This document shows positions 13,541-21,360 of a stretch of DNA of 64,000 bases, in pieces. The stretch is from Plantibacter flavus. Lineage in GTDB: Bacteria > Actinomycetota > Actinomycetes > Actinomycetales > Microbacteriaceae. The notes under the pieces were generated by a model, which saw only the letters and a list, made by a program, of their open reading frames with translations, had not been told where the DNA came from and did not search any database. A program made the translations under genes and the position numbers. Position 1 is the first letter of the stretch. Every line of letters starts with the position of its first letter. The stretch spans positions 1 to 64,000 of the forward strand of contig NZ_FXAP01000009.1 in the NCBI RefSeq assembly GCF_900177615.1, given 5' to 3'.

Positions 13541-14104
13541 TCAGTCGCGCGGGTCGAGCACGCTCGTGACCACGGCGTAGTCCGCGTCGAGCGCGATCTC
13601 GAGCTCGTCGCCGTTCTCGAGGAGGACGTCGACCTCGAACGCCTCGCCCGGGTCGTCACTGCGGTCCACATCGGTCACGGTGCCGCCCTTCGCCTCGGCG
13701 AGCGCCGCCTTCGAGGCCGCGTCGAACTCGGTGTCGGTGAGCGGCACGTCGTCGGCGTCACGGGCGTCGCGATCATCGATGGCCGCCGTGGTGTCACCGT
13801 CGTCGATGGCGCCGCTGCCGTCGCGGTCGGTGTTGGACGCAGCCGCGACGCGGTCGTCGTCGGCGTCCCCGAACTCGTCCACCGCGTAGGCGGCACCGGC
13901 TCCGCCGAGGGCGAGGGCCCCGACAACGATCGCGGTGATCCACACGGGCTTCCGGCGCCAGAAGGCCGGCTTCCCCGTGGTCGCCGGGGTCGCGGGGACG
14001 GTGGTGTGGTCGGTCGCCTCGACGCGCTCGACGGGTTCGATGCGCTCGGTGGCTGCGGTGGGCTGCGTGGGATCGGTGGGCTGGGAGGCGGTGTTCTCGT
14101 TCAT
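13541..14104 (-). CDS. PepSY-like membrane-anchored protein of a two-component locus
   Basis: A 187-aa protein. Residues 1-50 are a Pro/Thr-rich cytoplasmic tail, then KPVWITAIVVGALALGG (about 52-72) is a single membrane segment. An Asp-rich linker (about 77-118) and a PepSY-like C-terminal module follow, with LTDTEFDAASKAALAEAKGG and an acidic strand ending in LDADYAVVTSVL. PepSY domains are extracytoplasmic and may act as protein or ligand sensors or inhibitors. It follows the histidine kinase by 57 nt on the same strand. CTGAAGC repeats like those before the response regulator lie directly upstream, so it is probably both in that operon and a direct target. Confidence 0.75.
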   Translation of the reverse strand: MNENTASQPTDPTQPTAATERIEPVERVEATDHTTVPATPATTGKPAFWRRKPVWITAIVVGALALGGAGAAYAVDEFGDADDDRVAAASNTDRDGSGAIDDGDTTAAIDDRDARDADDVPLTDTEFDAASKAALAEAKGGTVTDVDRSDDPGEAFEVDVLLENGDELEIALDADYAVVTSVLDPRD

Positions 14105-14128
14105 GTGCCCCAGACTGTCCGAGGAGCG

Positions 14129-14156
14129 CTGAAGCGGACCTGAAGCGAGCTGAAGC
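14129..14156. promoter_or_regulatory. CTGAAGC direct repeats, putative response-regulator operator
   Basis: Three CTGAAGC copies start at 14129, 14140 and 14150, spaced 11 and 10 bp, one helical turn. This is the arrangement bound by OmpR/PhoB-type regulators as tandem dimers. They lie 25-52 bp before the ATG of the PepSY-like gene. The same heptamer with 11-bp spacing occurs before the response regulator gene at 16259-16276, in the same orientation relative to the gene. Confidence 0.6.
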
Positions 14157-14161
14157 CGCGT

Positions 14162-15520
14162 TCAGGAAGCGGACGACGCCGGGAGCGTGACGATGAACGC
14201 CGCCCCGCCGAGCGCGCTGTCGACGAGTTCGATCGACCCACCGTGCAGCCGCACGACGTCGGCCACGATCGCCAGGCCGAGGCCCGAACCGCCGGCGTCA
14301 CGCGAACGGCCCTCATCGAGGCGGACGAACCGTTCGAACACGTGTGCGCGGGACTCGACCGGCACACCGGGGCCGTCCTCCTCCACGGAGATCCTGACGA
14401 CCCGGCCGTCGGTGGAGCATCCGAGCCGGACCACGGATCGTGCGTGCCGCACGGCGTTGTCGACGAGGTTCCGCACCACCCGGGCGAGCAGGACGTCGTC
14501 GCCGTCGACCCTGGCCGCCGCGACGGCCGCGGACTCGACACGCAGTCCGCCTGCGGACCGGAGGCGAACGGCCTCCGCCAACAGGAGGTCGTCGACGTCG
14601 ACCGTGCGCCGCGCGGTGCCCGTCGCCCCTTCGTCGAGCTTCGCGAGCAGCAGGAGCGACTCGACGAGCCCCTGCATCCTGGCGCCCTCTTCGAGGACCG
14701 TCGAGGACAGCTCGGCCGGGTCGACCCGGTCCGGGTGGAGCGCCGCCACCTCGGCGTACTGCCTGATCACCGCGAGCGGTGAGCGGAGCTCGTGGGAGGC
14801 GTCCGACACGAACCGCCGCTGCGCCGTCTGGGCGTCCTCGAGCCGCTCGAGCATCCCGTTCATCGTCCCGGCCAGGCGACCGATCTCGTCGCCCGTGACG
14901 GGGACCTCGATCCGTCGATGCAGTTCGCCAGCCCCCAGTTCCGAGACCTCACGGCGGATGCGCTCCACCGGCGCCAACGCACGTCCCACGAGCAGCCAGG
15001 TCAGGCCGCCGACGAGGGCGACGAGCACGGGGACAGCGATGAGCAGGAGCATCGACACGAGTCCGACCGCGTCGTCGGTCTCCTCGAGGGAGCGGCCCGC
15101 GAGGACGACCAGGTCACGGCCGTCGACGTCGACGTCCTCACTGGCGAACACCACCGGCTCGTCGTCGACGACCGAGACGAACACGTCACCGTCCGGGATC
15201 GGCGTCGGGAGCTCGATCTCATCGTCCGTCCGGTCCACGACACGGCCGTCCTCGACGAGGACCAGGAGTCGACCGTCGTCCTCGGGCAGCGTCGTCACGT
15301 CCGCCGCGACCAGCTGCGCCGAAGCGCTCTCCGCCTCGGCCGACGCGCTCTGTTCGACGCCGGAACGGAGCGCCGCGGAGAACAGGCCGACGAACGCCAC
15401 GGAGCCGACCCCGAGGAACAGTCCGACCGCGAGCACCGATCCCAGTGCCGCGCGGGCTCGGACCGACCGCCACGGCCGCCGTCGGGGCGCGACCGCCCCG
15501 GGCGGCCCGGCGTCAGCCAC
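14162..15520 (-). CDS. Sensor histidine kinase (HAMP, HisKA, HATPase_c)
   Basis: A 452-aa membrane kinase. Membrane segments lie at about 26-50 and 152-178 and frame an acidic extracytoplasmic domain. A HAMP linker follows (ALAPVERIRREV), then HisKA with the phospho-acceptor H243 in SDASHELRSPLAVIRQY, and HATPase_c with NLVDNAVRHA (N-box), EDGPGVP (G1) and GSGLGLAI (G2). Start GTG 15520 overlaps the end of the response regulator (stop at 15513). The longer frame further upstream is only the shadow of the regulator. Signal unknown; by analogy with PhoR/BaeS-like systems it is likely an envelope or metal cue. Confidence 0.9.
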   Translation of the reverse strand: MADAGPPGAVAPRRRPWRSVRARAALGSVLAVGLFLGVGSVAFVGLFSAALRSGVEQSASAEAESASAQLVAADVTTLPEDDGRLLVLVEDGRVVDRTDDEIELPTPIPDGDVFVSVVDDEPVVFASEDVDVDGRDLVVLAGRSLEETDDAVGLVSMLLLIAVPVLVALVGGLTWLLVGRALAPVERIRREVSELGAGELHRRIEVPVTGDEIGRLAGTMNGMLERLEDAQTAQRRFVSDASHELRSPLAVIRQYAEVAALHPDRVDPAELSSTVLEEGARMQGLVESLLLLAKLDEGATGTARRTVDVDDLLLAEAVRLRSAGGLRVESAAVAAARVDGDDVLLARVVRNLVDNAVRHARSVVRLGCSTDGRVVRISVEEDGPGVPVESRAHVFERFVRLDEGRSRDAGGSGLGLAIVADVVRLHGGSIELVDSALGGAAFIVTLPASSAS

Positions 15521-16190
15521 GCCCGCCCGCCAACCGGTAGCCGAACCCGCGCACCGTCTCGATCGAAGCACGCTCGAAGGGGCGGTCCACCTTGTTGCGG
15601 AGATGCCCGACGTAGACCTCGACGATGTTGGGATCGCCCTCGAAGTCGTCGTCCCAGACGTTCTGCAGGACCTCGCGCTTCGACACCACCTCGCCGCCGC
15701 GTCGCATGAGGAACTCGAGGACCGCGAATTCGCGCGAGGTGAGGTCGATCGGAACGTCGCGGCGGTGGACCTGCTTCGACGCCGGGTCGAGCCGCAGTTC
15801 GCCGACCTCGAGCACCACCGGCCGCTCCCGCGATCCACGTCGGACGAGTGAGCGGATCCGCGCGACGAGCACCGCGAAGGAGAACGGTTTGCTCAGGAAG
15901 TCGTCGGCACCGGTGTCGAGGGCTTCGACCTGGTCCCAGTCGCCGTCCTTCGCCGTGAGCATGAGGATCGGGGTCCAGTCGCCTGCGTCGCGGAGCTGCT
16001 GACAGACGCGGTACCCGCTGAGGCCCGGCATCATGATGTCGAGGATGATGGCGTCGTAGCGATGCTCGCCGGCCATCCACAGGCCGTCGACTCCGTTCGC
16101 AGCGACGTCGACCGCGAAGCCCTCCGCTTCGAGCCCTCTCCGAACGCCGTCGGCGAGTCGCACCTCATCGTCCACGACGAGTATCCGCAT
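15513..16190 (-). CDS. OmpR/PhoB-family response regulator
   Basis: A 225-aa regulator. The receiver domain has acidic D8/D9 in VVDDE, phospho-acceptor D51 in IILDIMMPG, T79 and K101 in LSKPF. A winged-helix DNA-binding domain follows at about 130-222 (TSREFAVLEFLMRRGGEVVSK, VEVYVGHLRNKVD, VRGFGYRL). ATG 16190 has GGAGG nine bases upstream. It is the first gene of a three-gene unit with the kinase and the PepSY-like gene. Two CTGAAGC repeats about 70 bp upstream suggest autoregulation. Confidence 0.92.
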   Translation of the reverse strand: MRILVVDDEVRLADGVRRGLEAEGFAVDVAANGVDGLWMAGEHRYDAIILDIMMPGLSGYRVCQQLRDAGDWTPILMLTAKDGDWDQVEALDTGADDFLSKPFSFAVLVARIRSLVRRGSRERPVVLEVGELRLDPASKQVHRRDVPIDLTSREFAVLEFLMRRGGEVVSKREVLQNVWDDDFEGDPNIVEVYVGHLRNKVDRPFERASIETVRGFGYRLAGGRG

Positions 16191-16258
16191 CCGGTGCAGC
16201 CTCCAGGTTCCGTGCCGGTCGACGGTCGAGCGGCGCGTCCCAGTCTGGCGCGGACAAG

Positions 16259-16276
16259 CTGAAGCAGCGCTGAAGC
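16259..16276. promoter_or_regulatory. Paired CTGAAGC repeats upstream of response regulator
   Basis: CTGAAGC at 16259-16265 and 16270-16276, 11 bp apart. It lies in the divergent space between the response regulator (start 16190) and the AraC gene (start 16313). It matches the repeats before the PepSY-like gene and is a likely autoregulatory site; it could also affect the AraC promoter. Confidence 0.6.
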
Positions 16277-16312
16277 GGGACGGTCCGGCGTGGACCCCCG
16301 TACGCTGGAGCG

Positions 16313-17140
16313 GTGCCAGTCCCCGCCGCCGCCGACCCGTGGGAGCAGTCCCTCGACGCGACGGACACGGCACCGGCGCGTCGCAGACTCCCCCTCTACG
16401 AGGCCGGCGCGATCCCCGTGCCGTTCGTCATCCGCGGCAACACCGAGCGGATCGCGCGGGACACGCACTGGGACGAGCATTCCCACCCCACGCACGAACT
16501 CCTGTGGAACGATCGCGGCTCATCCACCGCGACTGTCGGCGATCGCGTCTGGACCGTGACCCCGCACCACGGTCTCTGGATCCCGGCCGGTGTCCGCCAC
16601 ACCGGGTGGACCCCGGCCGGCACCTGGCAGCGGGCCGCGATGTTCAGCGTCGACCGCGTCCCCACGATCTCCGAGCAGCCGACCGCGGTGGAGGTGACGC
16701 CCCTGCTGCGCCTCCTGCTCGACCGGCTCGGCGACGCCGAGCTCGAGGACCGCGCGCGTGCCACCACCGAGGCGGCCATCGTAGACGTGCTGGAGCCGGC
16801 CGAGCACGAGCTGCTTCTCCGACTCCCCCGGTCGGCGCTCCTGACACCCATCGCCGAGCGGATGCGCACGACCCCGTCCGACACGACCTCGCTCGCCGAA
16901 TGGGCGACCCGGCTGGGCGTGAGCACGCGGACGGTGACGCGCGCCTTCGAATCCGAGACCGGGTTGGGGTTCACCCGGTGGGTCGCCACCGCCCGAGCTC
17001 AGCACGCGATCACCCGGCTGACGGCGGGTGACAGCATCGCCGAGGTCGCGACCGCCGTCGGGTACCGCTCGTCGACGGCGTTCGGGACCGCGTTCCGCCG
17101 CGTCACCGGCACGAGCCCCGGGCGGTTCCGAAACCGCTGA
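16313..17140 (+). CDS. AraC-family regulator (cupin plus HTH)
   Basis: A 275-aa AraC/XylS protein. A cupin-type sensing domain (HWDEHSHPTHELLW, then GLWIPAGVRHTGWTPAG) is followed by a C-terminal double helix-turn-helix. The first HTH is SLAEWATRLGVSTRTVTRAF; the second is SIAEVATAVGYRSSTAFGTAFRRVTGTSPG. GTG 16313 has GGAG very close upstream. It points toward the siderophore importer genes and probably controls them or senses the siderophore. That is inferred from position only. Confidence 0.85.
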   Translation: MPVPAAADPWEQSLDATDTAPARRRLPLYEAGAIPVPFVIRGNTERIARDTHWDEHSHPTHELLWNDRGSSTATVGDRVWTVTPHHGLWIPAGVRHTGWTPAGTWQRAAMFSVDRVPTISEQPTAVEVTPLLRLLLDRLGDAELEDRARATTEAAIVDVLEPAEHELLLRLPRSALLTPIAERMRTTPSDTTSLAEWATRLGVSTRTVTRAFESETGLGFTRWVATARAQHAITRLTAGDSIAEVATAVGYRSSTAFGTAFRRVTGTSPGRFRNR

Positions 17141-17250: not shown

Positions 17251-17380
17251 ATCATCTCCTCCTTGTGTGTGACGCCGGCTGTTCACGGCCGCCATGCCCG
17301 ACCCCTCGACGACGTCCTCCGGCGCCGTCGTTCGTCGTGCGCGCACGCAGGTGTCAGCAAGCAGCACCCGAAAGGACCCC

Positions 17381-18406
17381 ATGCAGCGCGCATCACGTCT
17401 CGTCGCCCTCTCCGCGGCGGCGTTCCTCACCATCGGCCTCGCGGCCTGCTCGTCGTCTTCGGCCGAAGAAGGCACCGGCAGTGGCGACGGCTTCACGCCG
17501 ATCACGATCGAGCACGCGCTCGGCACCACGACGATCGACGCCAAGCCGGAGCGTGTCGCCACCGTGAACTGGGCGAACCACGAGGTGCCACTGGCCCTCG
17601 GCGTCGTGCCCGTCGGGATGGCCGCCGCGAACTTCGGTGACGACGACGGTGACGGGATGCTCCCCTGGGTCGAGGAGAAGCTCGAAGCGCTCGACGCCGA
17701 GCCCCCGGTGCTCTTCGACGAGACCGACGGGATCGACTTCGAGGCCGTCGCCGACACGAACCCCGACGTCATCCTCGCCGCATACTCTGGGCTCACCCAG
17801 GAGGACTACGACACCCTCACCGAGATCGCCCCCGTCGTGGCCTACCCGGAGACCGCCTGGGGCACGTCCTGGCGCGACACCATCCTGTTCAACAGCGAGG
17901 CGATGGGAATGGCCGACGAGGGCGAAGCGCTCGTGACGCAGCTCGAAGAGGAGATCGGCGAGGCGGCGGCGGCGTACCCGCAGCTCGAGGGCAAGACCGC
18001 GATGTTCCTCACCCACGTCGACACCAGTGACCTCAGCGAGGTCAGCTACTACACGACCCACGACACCCGCACCGCGTTCTTCGAGGACCTCGGCCTCGCG
18101 TTCCCAGAGAGCGTCGCGACGGCCTCCGCCGAGACCGAGTTGTTCTCCCTGACGCAGAGCGCCGAACAGGCCGACGAGTTCAGCGACGTCGACATCATCG
18201 TGACGTACGGCGGCGACGAGCTCATCGCGGCACTCGAGGCCGACCCGCTGCTGTCGCAGATGCCCGCCGTCGCGAACGGCGCCATCGTCGCCCTCCCCGG
18301 CACCAGCCCCCTCGGAACGGCCGCCAACCCGACGCCGCTCTCGATCTCCTGGATCCTCGACGACTACCTGAAGCTGCTCGCGCAGGCGGCAGACCAGGCG
18401 GCGTGA
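17381..18406 (+). CDS. Fe-siderophore ABC transporter, substrate-binding lipoprotein
   Basis: A 341-aa FecB/FhuD-type binding protein. A lipoprotein signal (ALSAAAFLTIGLAAC) puts the lipidated Cys at residue 23. The mature part has KPERVATVNWANHEVPLALG and NPDVILAAYSGLTQEDYDTL, the typical class III binding-protein framework with a single linking helix. ATG 17381 has AAAGGA upstream; the longer frame from 17294 would place residues before the signal peptide. First gene of the importer operon behind the DtxR box; its stop overlaps the first permease start. Confidence 0.9.
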   Translation: MQRASRLVALSAAAFLTIGLAACSSSSAEEGTGSGDGFTPITIEHALGTTTIDAKPERVATVNWANHEVPLALGVVPVGMAAANFGDDDGDGMLPWVEEKLEALDAEPPVLFDETDGIDFEAVADTNPDVILAAYSGLTQEDYDTLTEIAPVVAYPETAWGTSWRDTILFNSEAMGMADEGEALVTQLEEEIGEAAAAYPQLEGKTAMFLTHVDTSDLSEVSYYTTHDTRTAFFEDLGLAFPESVATASAETELFSLTQSAEQADEFSDVDIIVTYGGDELIAALEADPLLSQMPAVANGAIVALPGTSPLGTAANPTPLSISWILDDYLKLLAQAADQAA

Positions 18407-19449
18407 TCACCGGTACCGCCACCCCACCCGCCCCGGGTGTCGCCGTCGTGCGACGCCCGAGGCGGGTTCGTGGGCTCTGGCTCCTCGTCGCAGCCCTCGT
18501 CCTCCTCGCCGCGATGGTCGGTTCCGTGACGATCGGCTCGCGCGACGTCGACTGGTCAGCGGTCCTCGGTGCCGTCGCGGGTGGCGTGGACGGCTTCGAC
18601 CAGGCGGCGGTGGCCAAGCGGATCCCACGCACGCTCCTCGCGGTCGTGGCCGGTGCGGCGCTCGGCGTCTCCGGCGCCGTCATGCAGGGCGTGACCCGCA
18701 ACCCCCTCGCCGACCCGGGCATCCTCGGGATCAACCTCGGTGCCTCCCTCGCCGTCGTGACCGGCCTCGCGTACTTCGGGCTCGCAGCGGCGAGCACCAC
18801 CATCTGGGTCGCGATCATCGGCGCCGGAGCCACGGCGGTCTTCGTCTACACGGTCGGCTCGCTCGGCCGCGGCGGCGCGACACCGCTCAAGCTCGCCCTC
18901 GCGGGCGCCGCGACGTCCGCCGCGCTCGCCTCCGTCATCACGGCCGTCGTGCTGCCCCGCGGTGACATCGCGAGCAGTGTGCGGTCCTGGCAGATCGGTG
19001 GCGTCGGTGGCGCCACCGTCGTCCAACTCGAGCAGGTGCTGCCGTTCCTGGTCGTCGGGTTCCTCGTCTGCCTGCTGTCCGCACGCGGTCTCAACTCCCT
19101 CGCGCTCGGCGACGAGCTCGCCGCCGGCCTCGGTGAACGCGTCGCCATCGCACGCGGTGCGGCGGCCCTCGGTTCTGTGGTGCTCTGCGGGGCGGCGACC
19201 GCGGTCACCGGCCCCATCGGCTTCGTCGGGCTCGTCGTGCCGCATGCCTGTCGGCTCATCGTCGGCGTCGACCACCGGTGGCTCCTCCCCTTCTCAGCCG
19301 TCGTCGGGGCGATACTCCTCACCGTCGCCGACGTCCTCGGCCGCATCGTCGCCCGCCCCACGGAGATCGACGTGGGCATCATCACCGCGTTGATCGGCGC
19401 TCCGATCTTCATCGCGATCGTCCGTCGGCAGAAGGTGAGCGCCCTGTGA
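18403..19449 (+). CDS. Fe-siderophore ABC transporter permease 1 (FecCD family)
   Basis: A 348-aa permease with about nine to ten membrane segments. RIPRTLLAVVAGAALGVSGAVMQGVTRNPLADPGILGIN is the FecCD hallmark and GFVGLVVPHACRLIVG the later cytoplasmic coupling loop to the ATPase. The GTG start overlaps the binding-protein stop (GTGA). Forms a heterodimer with the next permease. Confidence 0.92.
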   Translation: MITGTATPPAPGVAVVRRPRRVRGLWLLVAALVLLAAMVGSVTIGSRDVDWSAVLGAVAGGVDGFDQAAVAKRIPRTLLAVVAGAALGVSGAVMQGVTRNPLADPGILGINLGASLAVVTGLAYFGLAAASTTIWVAIIGAGATAVFVYTVGSLGRGGATPLKLALAGAATSAALASVITAVVLPRGDIASSVRSWQIGGVGGATVVQLEQVLPFLVVGFLVCLLSARGLNSLALGDELAAGLGERVAIARGAAALGSVVLCGAATAVTGPIGFVGLVVPHACRLIVGVDHRWLLPFSAVVGAILLTVADVLGRIVARPTEIDVGIITALIGAPIFIAIVRRQKVSAL

Positions 19450-20522
19450 CCGTGCGCGAACCCGTCGCGGCGCCCGGCCTCGGTGGACGGACGCCCTCGA
19501 CCATCGACCGCGTCGTCGGTGGACGCCGGGTGCGCCGTCGTCGCCGGGTCGCCGTGATGACCACCCTCGCCGCGCTCATCGTCGCGGTCTTCCTGATCTC
19601 CCTGATGGTTGGCAACACCTTCTATCCGCCGAGCGACGTCATGCGCGTCATCCTCGGTCAGGACGTGCCGGGCGCCTCCTTCACCGTCGGACGGCTGCGG
19701 CTCCCCCGGGCGGCCCTCGCGGTCGTCGCCGGGGCTTCGTTCGGCCTGGCCGGCGTCACCTTCCAGACGATGCTGCGGAACCCCCTCGCGAGCCCGGACA
19801 TCATCGGCATCAGCGCCGGGTCGAGCGCGGCCGCCGCCTTCGCGATCGTTACCCTCTCGCTCGGCGCGACCGAGGTGTCGGTCTTCGCCATCGTCGTCGG
19901 CCTCGCCGTGGCGGTCCTCGTCTACGTCCTGGCCTACCGCGGCGGCGTCGCCGGAACCCGACTCATCCTGATCGGCATCGGTGTCGCCGCCATGCTCGAC
20001 AGTGTGACGACGTACATCCTGTCGCGGGCGGCCCAGTGGGACCTGCAGGAGGCGACCCGGTGGCTGACCGGCAGTCTCAACGGGACGAGCTGGTCGCAGG
20101 TCGGTCCGGTCGTCGTCGCGCTGCTCGTGCTCGTGCCCGTCCTCCTCGCCCAGTCGAGGAACCTCGCCGCGACCAGACTCGGCGACGACACCGCCGCCGC
20201 ACTCGGCGTCCACGTCGACCGGACGCGCCTGATCGTGATCGTCGCGGCAGTCGGCCTCATCGCGTTCGCGACCGCGGCGTCTGGGCCCATCGCGTTCGTC
20301 GCGTTCCTCTCCGGCCCCATCGCCTCGCGGATCGTCGGACGCGGCGGGTCGATGCTCGTGCCCGCCGCGCTCGTGGGTGCCCTCCTCGTCCTCGTGGCCG
20401 ATCTCACCGGGCAGTACCTCCTCGGCGCGCGCTACCCCGTCGGCGTCGTGACCGGGGTGCTCGGAGCGCCGTTCCTCATCTGGCTCATCATCCGCACCAA
20501 CCGCGCCGGTGGCTCGCTGTGA
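19446..20522 (+). CDS. Fe-siderophore ABC transporter permease 2 (FecCD family)
   Basis: A 358-aa permease from the GTG at 19446, overlapping the stop of permease 1 by four bases. It has a basic N-terminal tail (GRRVRRRRRVAVM) before the first helix, then RLPRAALAVVAGASFGLAGVTFQ, RNPLASPDIIGISAGSS and the coupling region around GPIAFVAFLSGPIASRI. An in-frame ATG at 19278 would extend into permease 1 and is rejected. Confidence 0.92.
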   Translation: MTVREPVAAPGLGGRTPSTIDRVVGGRRVRRRRRVAVMTTLAALIVAVFLISLMVGNTFYPPSDVMRVILGQDVPGASFTVGRLRLPRAALAVVAGASFGLAGVTFQTMLRNPLASPDIIGISAGSSAAAAFAIVTLSLGATEVSVFAIVVGLAVAVLVYVLAYRGGVAGTRLILIGIGVAAMLDSVTTYILSRAAQWDLQEATRWLTGSLNGTSWSQVGPVVVALLVLVPVLLAQSRNLAATRLGDDTAAALGVHVDRTRLIVIVAAVGLIAFATAASGPIAFVAFLSGPIASRIVGRGGSMLVPAALVGALLVLVADLTGQYLLGARYPVGVVTGVLGAPFLIWLIIRTNRAGGSL

Positions 20523-20556
20523 CCGGCACACCGCCCGACCATCCCGGAGGCACCCT

Positions 20557-21360
20557 GTGACCACGGAACACCACCTCCTCGTCGAGCGACTCGCGCTCGG
20601 CTACGGCGACCGGACCGTCATCGACGGACTCGACCTCCTCGTCCCACCCGGCCGGGTGACGGCGATCGTCGGCGCGAACGCCTGCGGCAAGTCGACGCTG
20701 CTGCGATCGATGTCCCGCCTGCTGACGCCTCGGAGCGGCCGCGTCGTCCTCGACGGCAAGGACGTGCACCGACTGCCGGCGAAGCAGCTGGCACGCACGC
20801 TCGGCCTGCTCCCGCAGTCGCCCATCGCGCCGGAGGGGATCACGGTCGCCGACCTCGTCGGACGAGGCAGACACCCGCACCAGGGCTTCCTCTCCCGCTG
20901 GAGCACCGAGGACGACGTCGCGGTCGCTGCGGCGCTCGACGCCACCGAGACGAGCGAGCTCGCGGACCGGCATGTCGATGAGCTGTCCGGCGGACAACGT
21001 CAGCGCGTGTGGATCGCGATGGCGCTCGCGCAGCAGACCGACCTGCTCCTCCTCGACGAACCGACCACCTTCCTCGACGTGAGCCACCAGGTGGAGGTGC
21101 TCGACCTCCTCACGGACCTCAACCGTTCCCGCGGGACGACCATCGTCATGGTGCTCCACGACCTGAACCTCGCCGCACGTTACGCCGACCACCTCATCGC
21201 CCTCGCCGGTGGCCGTCTCCATGCGGCGGGGACACCCCACGAGGTGCTGACGGAGTCGACGGTGCGTGCGGTGTTCGGACTGCAGAACCAGGTCATCACC
21301 GACCCGACCTCGGGCAAGCCGCTCATGCTGCCGATCGGCCGTCACCACGTGACGGTCTGA
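20557..21360 (+). CDS. Fe-siderophore ABC transporter ATP-binding protein (FecE-like)
   Basis: A 267-aa ATPase. Walker A GANACGKST (39-47), Q-loop in LLPQSP, signature LSGGQRQR (143-150), Walker B LLLLDEPT (163-170) and H-loop in MVLHDLN. GTG 20557 has GGAGG six bases upstream, 34 nt after the permease stop. Completes a four-gene importer with no exporter or synthase nearby, so it likely takes up siderophores made elsewhere or by other organisms. Confidence 0.92.
   Translation: MTTEHHLLVERLALGYGDRTVIDGLDLLVPPGRVTAIVGANACGKSTLLRSMSRLLTPRSGRVVLDGKDVHRLPAKQLARTLGLLPQSPIAPEGITVADLVGRGRHPHQGFLSRWSTEDDVAVAAALDATETSELADRHVDELSGGQRQRVWIAMALAQQTDLLLLDEPTTFLDVSHQVEVLDLLTDLNRSRGTTIVMVLHDLNLAARYADHLIALAGGRLHAAGTPHEVLTESTVRAVFGLQNQVITDPTSGKPLMLPIGRHHVTV

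Follow-up and report, generated by a model that had tools for sequence, protein, structure and literature searches.

The window analysed here is a stretch of 64,000 nucleotides (nt) of the Plantibacter flavus genome (contig NZ_FXAP01000009.1, positions 1 to 64,000), and the subject is a two-component locus in it with matching direct repeats before two of its genes. The response regulator, sensor kinase and PepSY genes are adjacent on the minus strand (13541-16190), which is the gene arrangement of UipRS-UipA; a small PepSY protein encoded at most four genes from the kinase or regulator is also the arrangement expected of DbfQRS-like systems. The regulator (15513-16190, minus strand, 225 amino acids, aa) is UipR-like by Pfam and orthologues. 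It consists of a receiver and a Trans_reg_C winged helix, both above the cut-off (PF00072, 103.7 bits; PF00486, 88.2 bits), and thus belongs to the OmpR/PhoB family. The model of the heavy-metal regulator subfamily CztR/SilR/CopR (TIGR01387) was its best-scoring one, although the score did not reach the cut-off (238.1 vs. 279.2 bits), and the kinase was below the TIGR01386 cut-off (192.7 vs. 292.55 bits). The UipS-like sensor histidine kinase (14162-15520, minus strand; HAMP, HisKA and HATPase_c by Pfam) has an inferred GTG start that overlaps the regulator stop codon. The third gene (13541-14104, minus strand) encodes a UipA-like protein of 187 aa with a hydrophobic segment at approximately residues 54-75 (read by eye), an acidic linker, one PepSY domain at approximately residues 116-184 and an acidic C-terminal part.

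Five copies of CTGAAGC, all in one orientation (plus strand), were found when positions were recomputed (14129-14135, 14140-14146, 14150-14156, 16259-16265 and 16270-16276). These are the places given in the original prediction, which had been made from the letters of the window alone, and the spacing that it claimed was also borne out (11 and 10 base pairs, bp, before the PepSY gene and 11 bp before the regulator). Because the genes are on the minus strand, the unit reads GCTTCAG in the gene sense. In the regulator promoter, half-site 1 (16270-16276, minus strand) is followed 11 bp downstream by half-site 2 (16259-16265, minus strand), both of them kept before orthologues, and 11 nt after half-site 2 by the -10-like hexamer CAGACT (16242-16247, minus strand). 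A 51-nt gap separates this hexamer from the start codon, with a GGAGG upstream of the regulator ATG (16200-16204, minus strand). The PepSY promoter sits within the 57 bp that separate the kinase and PepSY genes and has three direct half-sites on the minus strand, all of them kept in orthologous loci: half-site 1 (14150-14156), half-site 2 (14140-14146), 10 bp on, and half-site 3 (14129-14135), 11 bp further on. The -10-like hexamer CAGTCT (14112-14117, minus strand) is separated from half-site 3 by 11 nt and from the downstream ATG by 7 nt, so the PepSY mRNA is probably leaderless. An inverted half-site, CTGAA (14161-14165, minus strand), starts 11 nt upstream of the first TTCAG of this promoter, as read from the sequence and from a comparison of triple sites, and contains the TGA stop codon of the kinase (14162-14164). 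The inverted half-site and both -10-like hexamers are elements beyond those described in the original prediction. No -35-like hexamer was seen by eye 17 nt from either -10 (GGTCCG and GCGCTG occupy these places).

Single CTGAAGC heptamers were mildly over-represented in the window (9 vs. 4.12 expected; 4 of 100 shuffles reached 9), and the 18-mer with up to three mismatches was not enriched there (6 vs. 4.14 expected). A genome search for the tandem, proposed as a check when the repeats were first noticed, found GCTTCAGN{3,4}GCTTCAG at 4 places in 4,300,060 bases. Three of these are at this locus, and the fourth is inside a coding sequence read by eye as adenylate kinase (adk-like); the reversed control of the exact tandem pattern had 0 places in the same 4,300,060 bases. 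The shorter pattern CTTCAGN5CTTCAG had 2 exact places in the genome, both at the locus. A wide regulon of degenerate copies was unsupported, since CTTCAGN5CTTCAG with at most two mismatches occurred at 164 places vs. 299 for the reversed control. The GTTCAG variants included one exact pair elsewhere in the genome. With the -10 added, TTCAG-N6-TTCAG-N11-CANNNT occurred exactly twice per genome in all seven same-genus genomes, at this locus; overall it had 19 places in 11 of 40 genomes, and the reversed control had 1.

To survey conservation, 57 stretches were fetched from the family, in which 50 of 199 genomes had a regulator match at an expectation value (E) of 1e-58 or better, and 80 named loci (the best 80 of at least 590) were added. 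The resulting 138 loci, the window included, were reduced to 131 distinct regulators by dropping one locus with the regulator start outside its stretch (L135) and six duplicate proteins. A site was counted as conserved when a TTCAG-N6-TTCAG pair was present in sense orientation at most 200 bp upstream of the regulator. The nearest named relatives were Plantibacter, with a regulator 99% identical. The pair was upstream of 6 of 6 regulators at 95-100% identity, 9 of 9 at 75-95%, 54 of 58 at 70-75%, 24 of 41 at 65-70%, 4 of 10 at 60-65% and 0 of 7 at 50-60%. Pooled, it preceded 69 of 73 orthologues at least 70% identical, 28 of 51 at 60-70% and 0 of 7 below 60%, with shuffles of the same upstream stretches giving 0 to 0.01 pairs on average. 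None of the seven own paralogues examined had the pair (L028-L034; 7 of the 13 next-best full-length matches, those with loci made). The original prediction had been staked beforehand on the presence of the repeats upstream of orthologues, and it passed this test, with the site fading below approximately 65% identity. Among the 97 regulator sites, the -10-like hexamer followed at 11 nt in 71 and at 10 nt in 21, and the start codon was at leaderless distance (22-24 nt past the last TTCAG) in 47. Named carriers include Microbacterium, Curtobacterium, Agreia, Cryobacterium, Nocardioides, Actinoplanes, Streptomyces sp. NBC_01481 and Acidimicrobiia. Three regulator promoters (L182, L183 and L225) have three TTCAG units 11 bp apart rather than two.

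Regulator matches were present in 68 genomes at the scale of the phylum, and 29 loci of the best matches were examined, some of them from genomes already covered. The sense pair was upstream of the regulator in 12 of these 29 loci, and 11 of the 12 were among the 15 loci at least 63% identical; antisense pairs were found in five. Because the sense pair is concentrated at 63% identity and above in these loci, the predicted operator marks one clade of regulators and not all relatives. Two or three UipR-like regulators per genome were observed in four cases (G074, G198, G164 and G097), and the operator was missing from some copies.

The presence of a site was associated with residue 196 of the regulator, which we place in the recognition helix by analogy with PhoB. 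Of the 130 regulators that have a site nearby, 107 had His196 and 0 had Tyr196; of the 44 that have none, 3 had His196 and 33 had Tyr196. When only regulators at 60-70% identity were compared, His and other residues numbered 47 and 13 with a site, and 3 and 16 without.

A PepSY gene was present in the fetched locus for 63 of the 73 distinct regulator orthologues at least 70% identical. PepSY promoters carry a third repeat and the inverted CTGAA, which was found in 66 of 67 distinct triple sites, with its start 11 nt ahead of the first TTCAG (65 sites) or 12 nt ahead of it (one site). The 67 sites are distinct by sequence, close relatives included, and came from the 131 loci, from 5 of 10 extra stretches (4 gave new sequence) and from 8 of 26 new phylum loci; because these were chosen for a regulator and a PepSY gene beside the site, the count is enriched for complete modules. 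Of 55 in-locus cases, 34 had the TGA within CTGAA as the end of a frame of 200 codons or more and 20 did not (one had no CTGAA), so CTGAA is not just a stop codon. It also precedes PepSY genes away from the kinase. In L268, L269, L271 and L276 the PepSY gene is about 10, 12, 33 and 5 kilobases from the regulator, respectively, and keeps the inverted half-site, the three repeats and the -10; the operator therefore goes with the output gene. The second site was missing from the fetched stretch in 9 of the 73 orthologues at least 70% identical, and a displaced PepSY gene explains four of these (L084, L099, L105 and L085). One PepSY gene (L273, from G062) has an ATG at leaderless distance that opens no frame longer than 90 aa, its PepSY frame beginning at a later GTG, and may be frameshifted or misread.

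Other outputs were found under the same operator. A secreted, disordered-looking His/Asp-rich repeat protein (DDHG units) replaces the PepSY protein under a triple-site operator in L109/L274 and L114/L275. The L274 protein had no Pfam match and a weak N-terminal PepSY_MTB match (E 0.029), because of which it may, judged by sequence, be a PepSY protein that lost its domain. Genes for a family of secreted lipoprotein-like proteins also follow the operator (L272, L291, L292, L298 and, by eye, L220); the one member tested, L272, had no Pfam or NCBIfam match.

The composite promoter STTCAG-N5-STTCAG-N11-SANNNT was found at 52 places in 34 of 150 family genomes, and its control at 0 places in all 150. 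Coordinates and gene reading placed 50 of the 52 before a UipR-like regulator, a PepSY gene or a His/Asp-rich substitute. Of the other two, one (G091) lies before a lipoprotein-like gene, of a family that also stands beside such regulators elsewhere, and one (G118) is unexplained. At the scale of the phylum, the composite was found at 29 places in 28 of 396 genomes and the control at 7 places; 17 of the 29 were at genes of these types.

NCBIfam NF051432 (PepSY_MTB) matched the PepSY protein at 62.2 bits (cut-off 60) and, in the six-frame search, at 56.4 bits, below the cut-off; across 14 named control genomes this model matched in Bacillus subtilis only, below the cut-off. A Pfam search of the protein gave no match, and its single sequence alone gave no structure match at E up to 1. 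The profile of nine operator-linked PepSY proteins placed UipA of Microbacterium first (7ath, E 1.7e-16), followed by the Rv0603 structures (2lra, 2kgy). In the AlphaFold model, confidence is high for an alpha-beta domain at approximately residues 116-184 and low elsewhere (mean predicted local distance difference test score 62.2). The best Foldseek match of this model was again UipA 7ath (E 2.6e-5; TM-scores 0.32 and 0.44, root-mean-square deviation 19.6, the chain being mostly disordered), and the protein is thus a UipA homologue by both the profile and the model. In Microbacterium oleivorans NBRC 103075 (L176) both operators are kept, and the gene under the triple site encodes a UipA homologue (7ath, E 1.9e-26). 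UipA of Microbacterium has tandem PepSY domains, whereas one recognisable domain was found in the Plantibacter-type protein (one in seven same-genus loci by profile, and one folded domain in the model); because of this single domain, we call the protein UipA-like and not UipA. An EF-hand-like loop in the PepSY linker was dropped as a candidate, not being conserved in the genus.

On the other side of the regulator, a divergent AraC-type regulator gene adjoins (window 16301-17140, plus strand, GTG at 16313), with a -10-like TACGCT at 16301-16306, 6 nt ahead of its start. The 122-bp gap that holds the regulator operator is common to this gene, which could be affected by binding there. The AraC gene as a part of the module was rejected; of the 138 loci searched, 4 had it, each of them from this genus, a count to which several loci contribute little or no sequence on the AraC side. 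Next to it, at 17294-21360 (plus strand), is an iron-siderophore-type ABC transporter (Peripla_BP_2, two FecCD permeases and an ATPase-like open reading frame read by eye).

These observations make it very probable, as far as predicted sites can tell, that the repeats serve as the operator for the UipR-like OmpR/PhoB-family regulator encoded in this locus, which would activate its own operon and the PepSY output in a closed, single-locus loop. The original prediction that the repeats are the cognate regulator's site gains support from the occurrence of the sites in many genera, before both regulator and PepSY genes and before displaced PepSY genes, from their absence at all seven own paralogues examined and from residue 196; the closed loop that it proposed appears well supported by the same comparison of predicted sites. 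The UipS-like kinase, on a signal that is perhaps a metal, would phosphorylate the UipR-like regulator, and we infer that dimers of the phosphorylated protein occupy TTCAG half-sites that lie on one helical face at a spacing of 10-11 bp. Half-sites on one face, 10-11 nt from the -10 and with no -35, are the arrangement of class II activation by PhoB-like regulators. Since 10-11 nt separate the end of the last half-site from the -10 downstream and no -35-like hexamer was seen, we propose class II (pho-box-like) activation of RNA polymerase. The two-half-site operator would drive the regulator-kinase operon (positive autoregulation), and the four-half-site operator (one inverted CTGAA and three direct TTCAG) would drive the apparently membrane-anchored, extracytoplasmic PepSY output. 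A loop with one output is suggested because the strict composite promoter is at only these two places in the genome. The regulator operon and the PepSY gene would be turned up together, and PepSY protein in the membrane would then lower the signal. It probably lowers kinase activity, either through binding to the kinase, like DbfQ, or through buffering of the ligand, neither of which is preferred here. A role as a feedback element is plausible by analogy with DbfQ of Vibrio cholerae (PMC12714742).

Several results weigh against this assignment. A sense pair was absent upstream of the regulator in 17 of the 41 distinct loci at 65-70% identity (three of the 17, L118, L119 and L200, have a PepSY gene upstream of the regulator, with the site before it), antisense pairs were upstream in 3 of 41 loci at 65-70% and in 1 of 10 at 60-65%, and 11 of the 80 named loci had no pair anywhere in the stretch. 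Ancestry is a confounder of the link between His196 and the site, and the 44 siteless rows include 7 own paralogues; for these reasons residue 196 was used as direction only, its formal significance being inflated by shared ancestry. At the scale of the phylum, 12 of the 29 composite places had no neighbour of the expected types, vs. 7 control places in all. Two of these 12, in distant genomes (L293 and L294), lie before genes resembling pstS by eye, because of which PhoP boxes may be similar to this operator. Pho boxes are 11-bp direct repeats of the TTCAC type. The sites might thus be bound by another OmpR/PhoB-family regulator, such as PhoP, with the locus as one target among its own; we consider this very unlikely, since copies of the site would be expected elsewhere if its regulator had many targets, whereas the strict composite was confined to the locus in 7 of 7 same-genus genomes, and the site fades with divergence of the UipR-like regulator and goes with residue 196. 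The probability that the repeats are due to chance, or are kept for another reason such as RNA structure, is negligible: single heptamers are mildly enriched in the window, but the fixed spacing is kept across genera and shuffles gave approximately 0 pairs.

The sign of the regulation and the role of the output were weighed in the same way. The regulator could repress, or repress when unphosphorylated and activate when phosphorylated, which would result in negative autoregulation, and sites just upstream of the -10 are compatible with either sign. This is unlikely, because no -35-like hexamer was found at 17 nt, 92 of 97 regulator sites have a gap of 10-11 nt, which is also that of activator-dependent class II promoters, and DbfR of DbfQRS appears to autoactivate (PMC12714742). 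A stronger alternative, to which we give somewhat less than an even chance, is that the operator is real but that the PepSY protein is only an effector (a metal buffer or surface protein) with no influence on the kinase. Uranyl and iron binding by UipA (PMC8963506) agrees with this, and outputs of the His/Asp-rich (L109, L114) or lipoprotein-like type (L220, L291, L292, L298) would hardly all bind the kinase alike. However, the small PepSY protein DbfQ binds DbfS and shifts it to a phosphatase, and the enrichment of PepSY genes next to two-component systems is reported as more than 60-fold above chance (both in PMC12714742). Activation by the cognate regulator, with feedback by the output, remains our preferred reading; a buffering role for the PepSY protein would agree with the metal binding of UipA and with the His/Asp-rich replacements.

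UipRS-UipA of Microbacterium, reportedly described by Gallois et al. in ISME J in 2022, resembles the present locus in having two-component genes upstream of a single-pass PepSY protein. PhoB, PmrA and PhoP boxes are class II promoters in which 11-bp direct repeats replace the -35 element, and they differ from this operator in their core sequence and in having no constant inverted half-site. In the Rv0600c-Rv0603 group of Mycobacterium tuberculosis the kinase is split in two. Rv0603, an exported protein and the second structural neighbour of the window PepSY domain, belongs to this group (TcrA group), which PMC10743970 names as one sensor system. DbfQRS of Vibrio cholerae (PMC12714742) also has a PepSY protein beside a two-component system, and positive autoregulation is suggested there; its PepSY protein, DbfQ, modulates the kinase. 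DbfQ is secreted to the periplasm, its gene being in a predicted dbfQRS operon, and the transcriptional effects of DbfR are broad, whereas the PepSY protein described here looks membrane-anchored and is encoded by a gene that has an operator to itself and is the sole target with a strict site. Like the present locus, CopRS of Corynebacterium glutamicum is, in the available part of PMC3140484, an actinobacterial two-component system with a direct repeat (TGAAGATTTnnTGAAGATTT, 11-bp period, TGAAG core), with an apparently single genomic site, and activates its own genes. It differs in having 9-bp repeats, one site amid divergent gene groups and copper-resistance targets, and that part of the source makes no mention of a PepSY output. 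CutR of Streptomyces was considered as the same regulator and rejected, PMC10433416 having yielded no motif.

Among the papers listed, most of them judged by their listing, we recognised none as describing this operator; the UipA paper was outside the search, so earlier notice is possible. Autoregulation of OmpR-type systems, partnership with PepSY proteins and direct repeats of 11 bp are already known singly. As far as the literature listings show, what is new is an operator for the UipRS family, the constancy of the inverted half-site in it, the finding that it is nearly confined to one output gene, and the output swaps.

We tentatively propose, at less than even odds, that UipRS-type systems form a family of actinobacterial circuits for extracytoplasmic sensing, each of them self-contained. 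Their main conserved output, marked by CTGAA-N6-TTCAG-N5-TTCAG-N6-TTCAG-N11-SANNNT, would be an acidic protein of the cell surface with feedback on the kinase, which it probably exerts by buffering the metal that is sensed. The output (PepSY, His/Asp-repeat or lipoprotein-like) would be swappable under a constant operator, and the extra inverted half-site would set the output threshold apart from the autoregulation threshold. Because the PepSY protein is swapped for His/Asp-rich proteins under the same operator, what is conserved in the feedback may be the buffering of a ligand and not a single fixed contact between proteins. The available part of a 2022 review (PMC8963506) states that UipA binds uranyl and iron and that a role of UipRS in uranium sensing is not yet shown, and names no operator for UipRS. 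The predicted operator links UipRS to UipA and makes this role testable. It would also serve as a sequence signature for the outputs of the regulator family, including distant and non-PepSY outputs.

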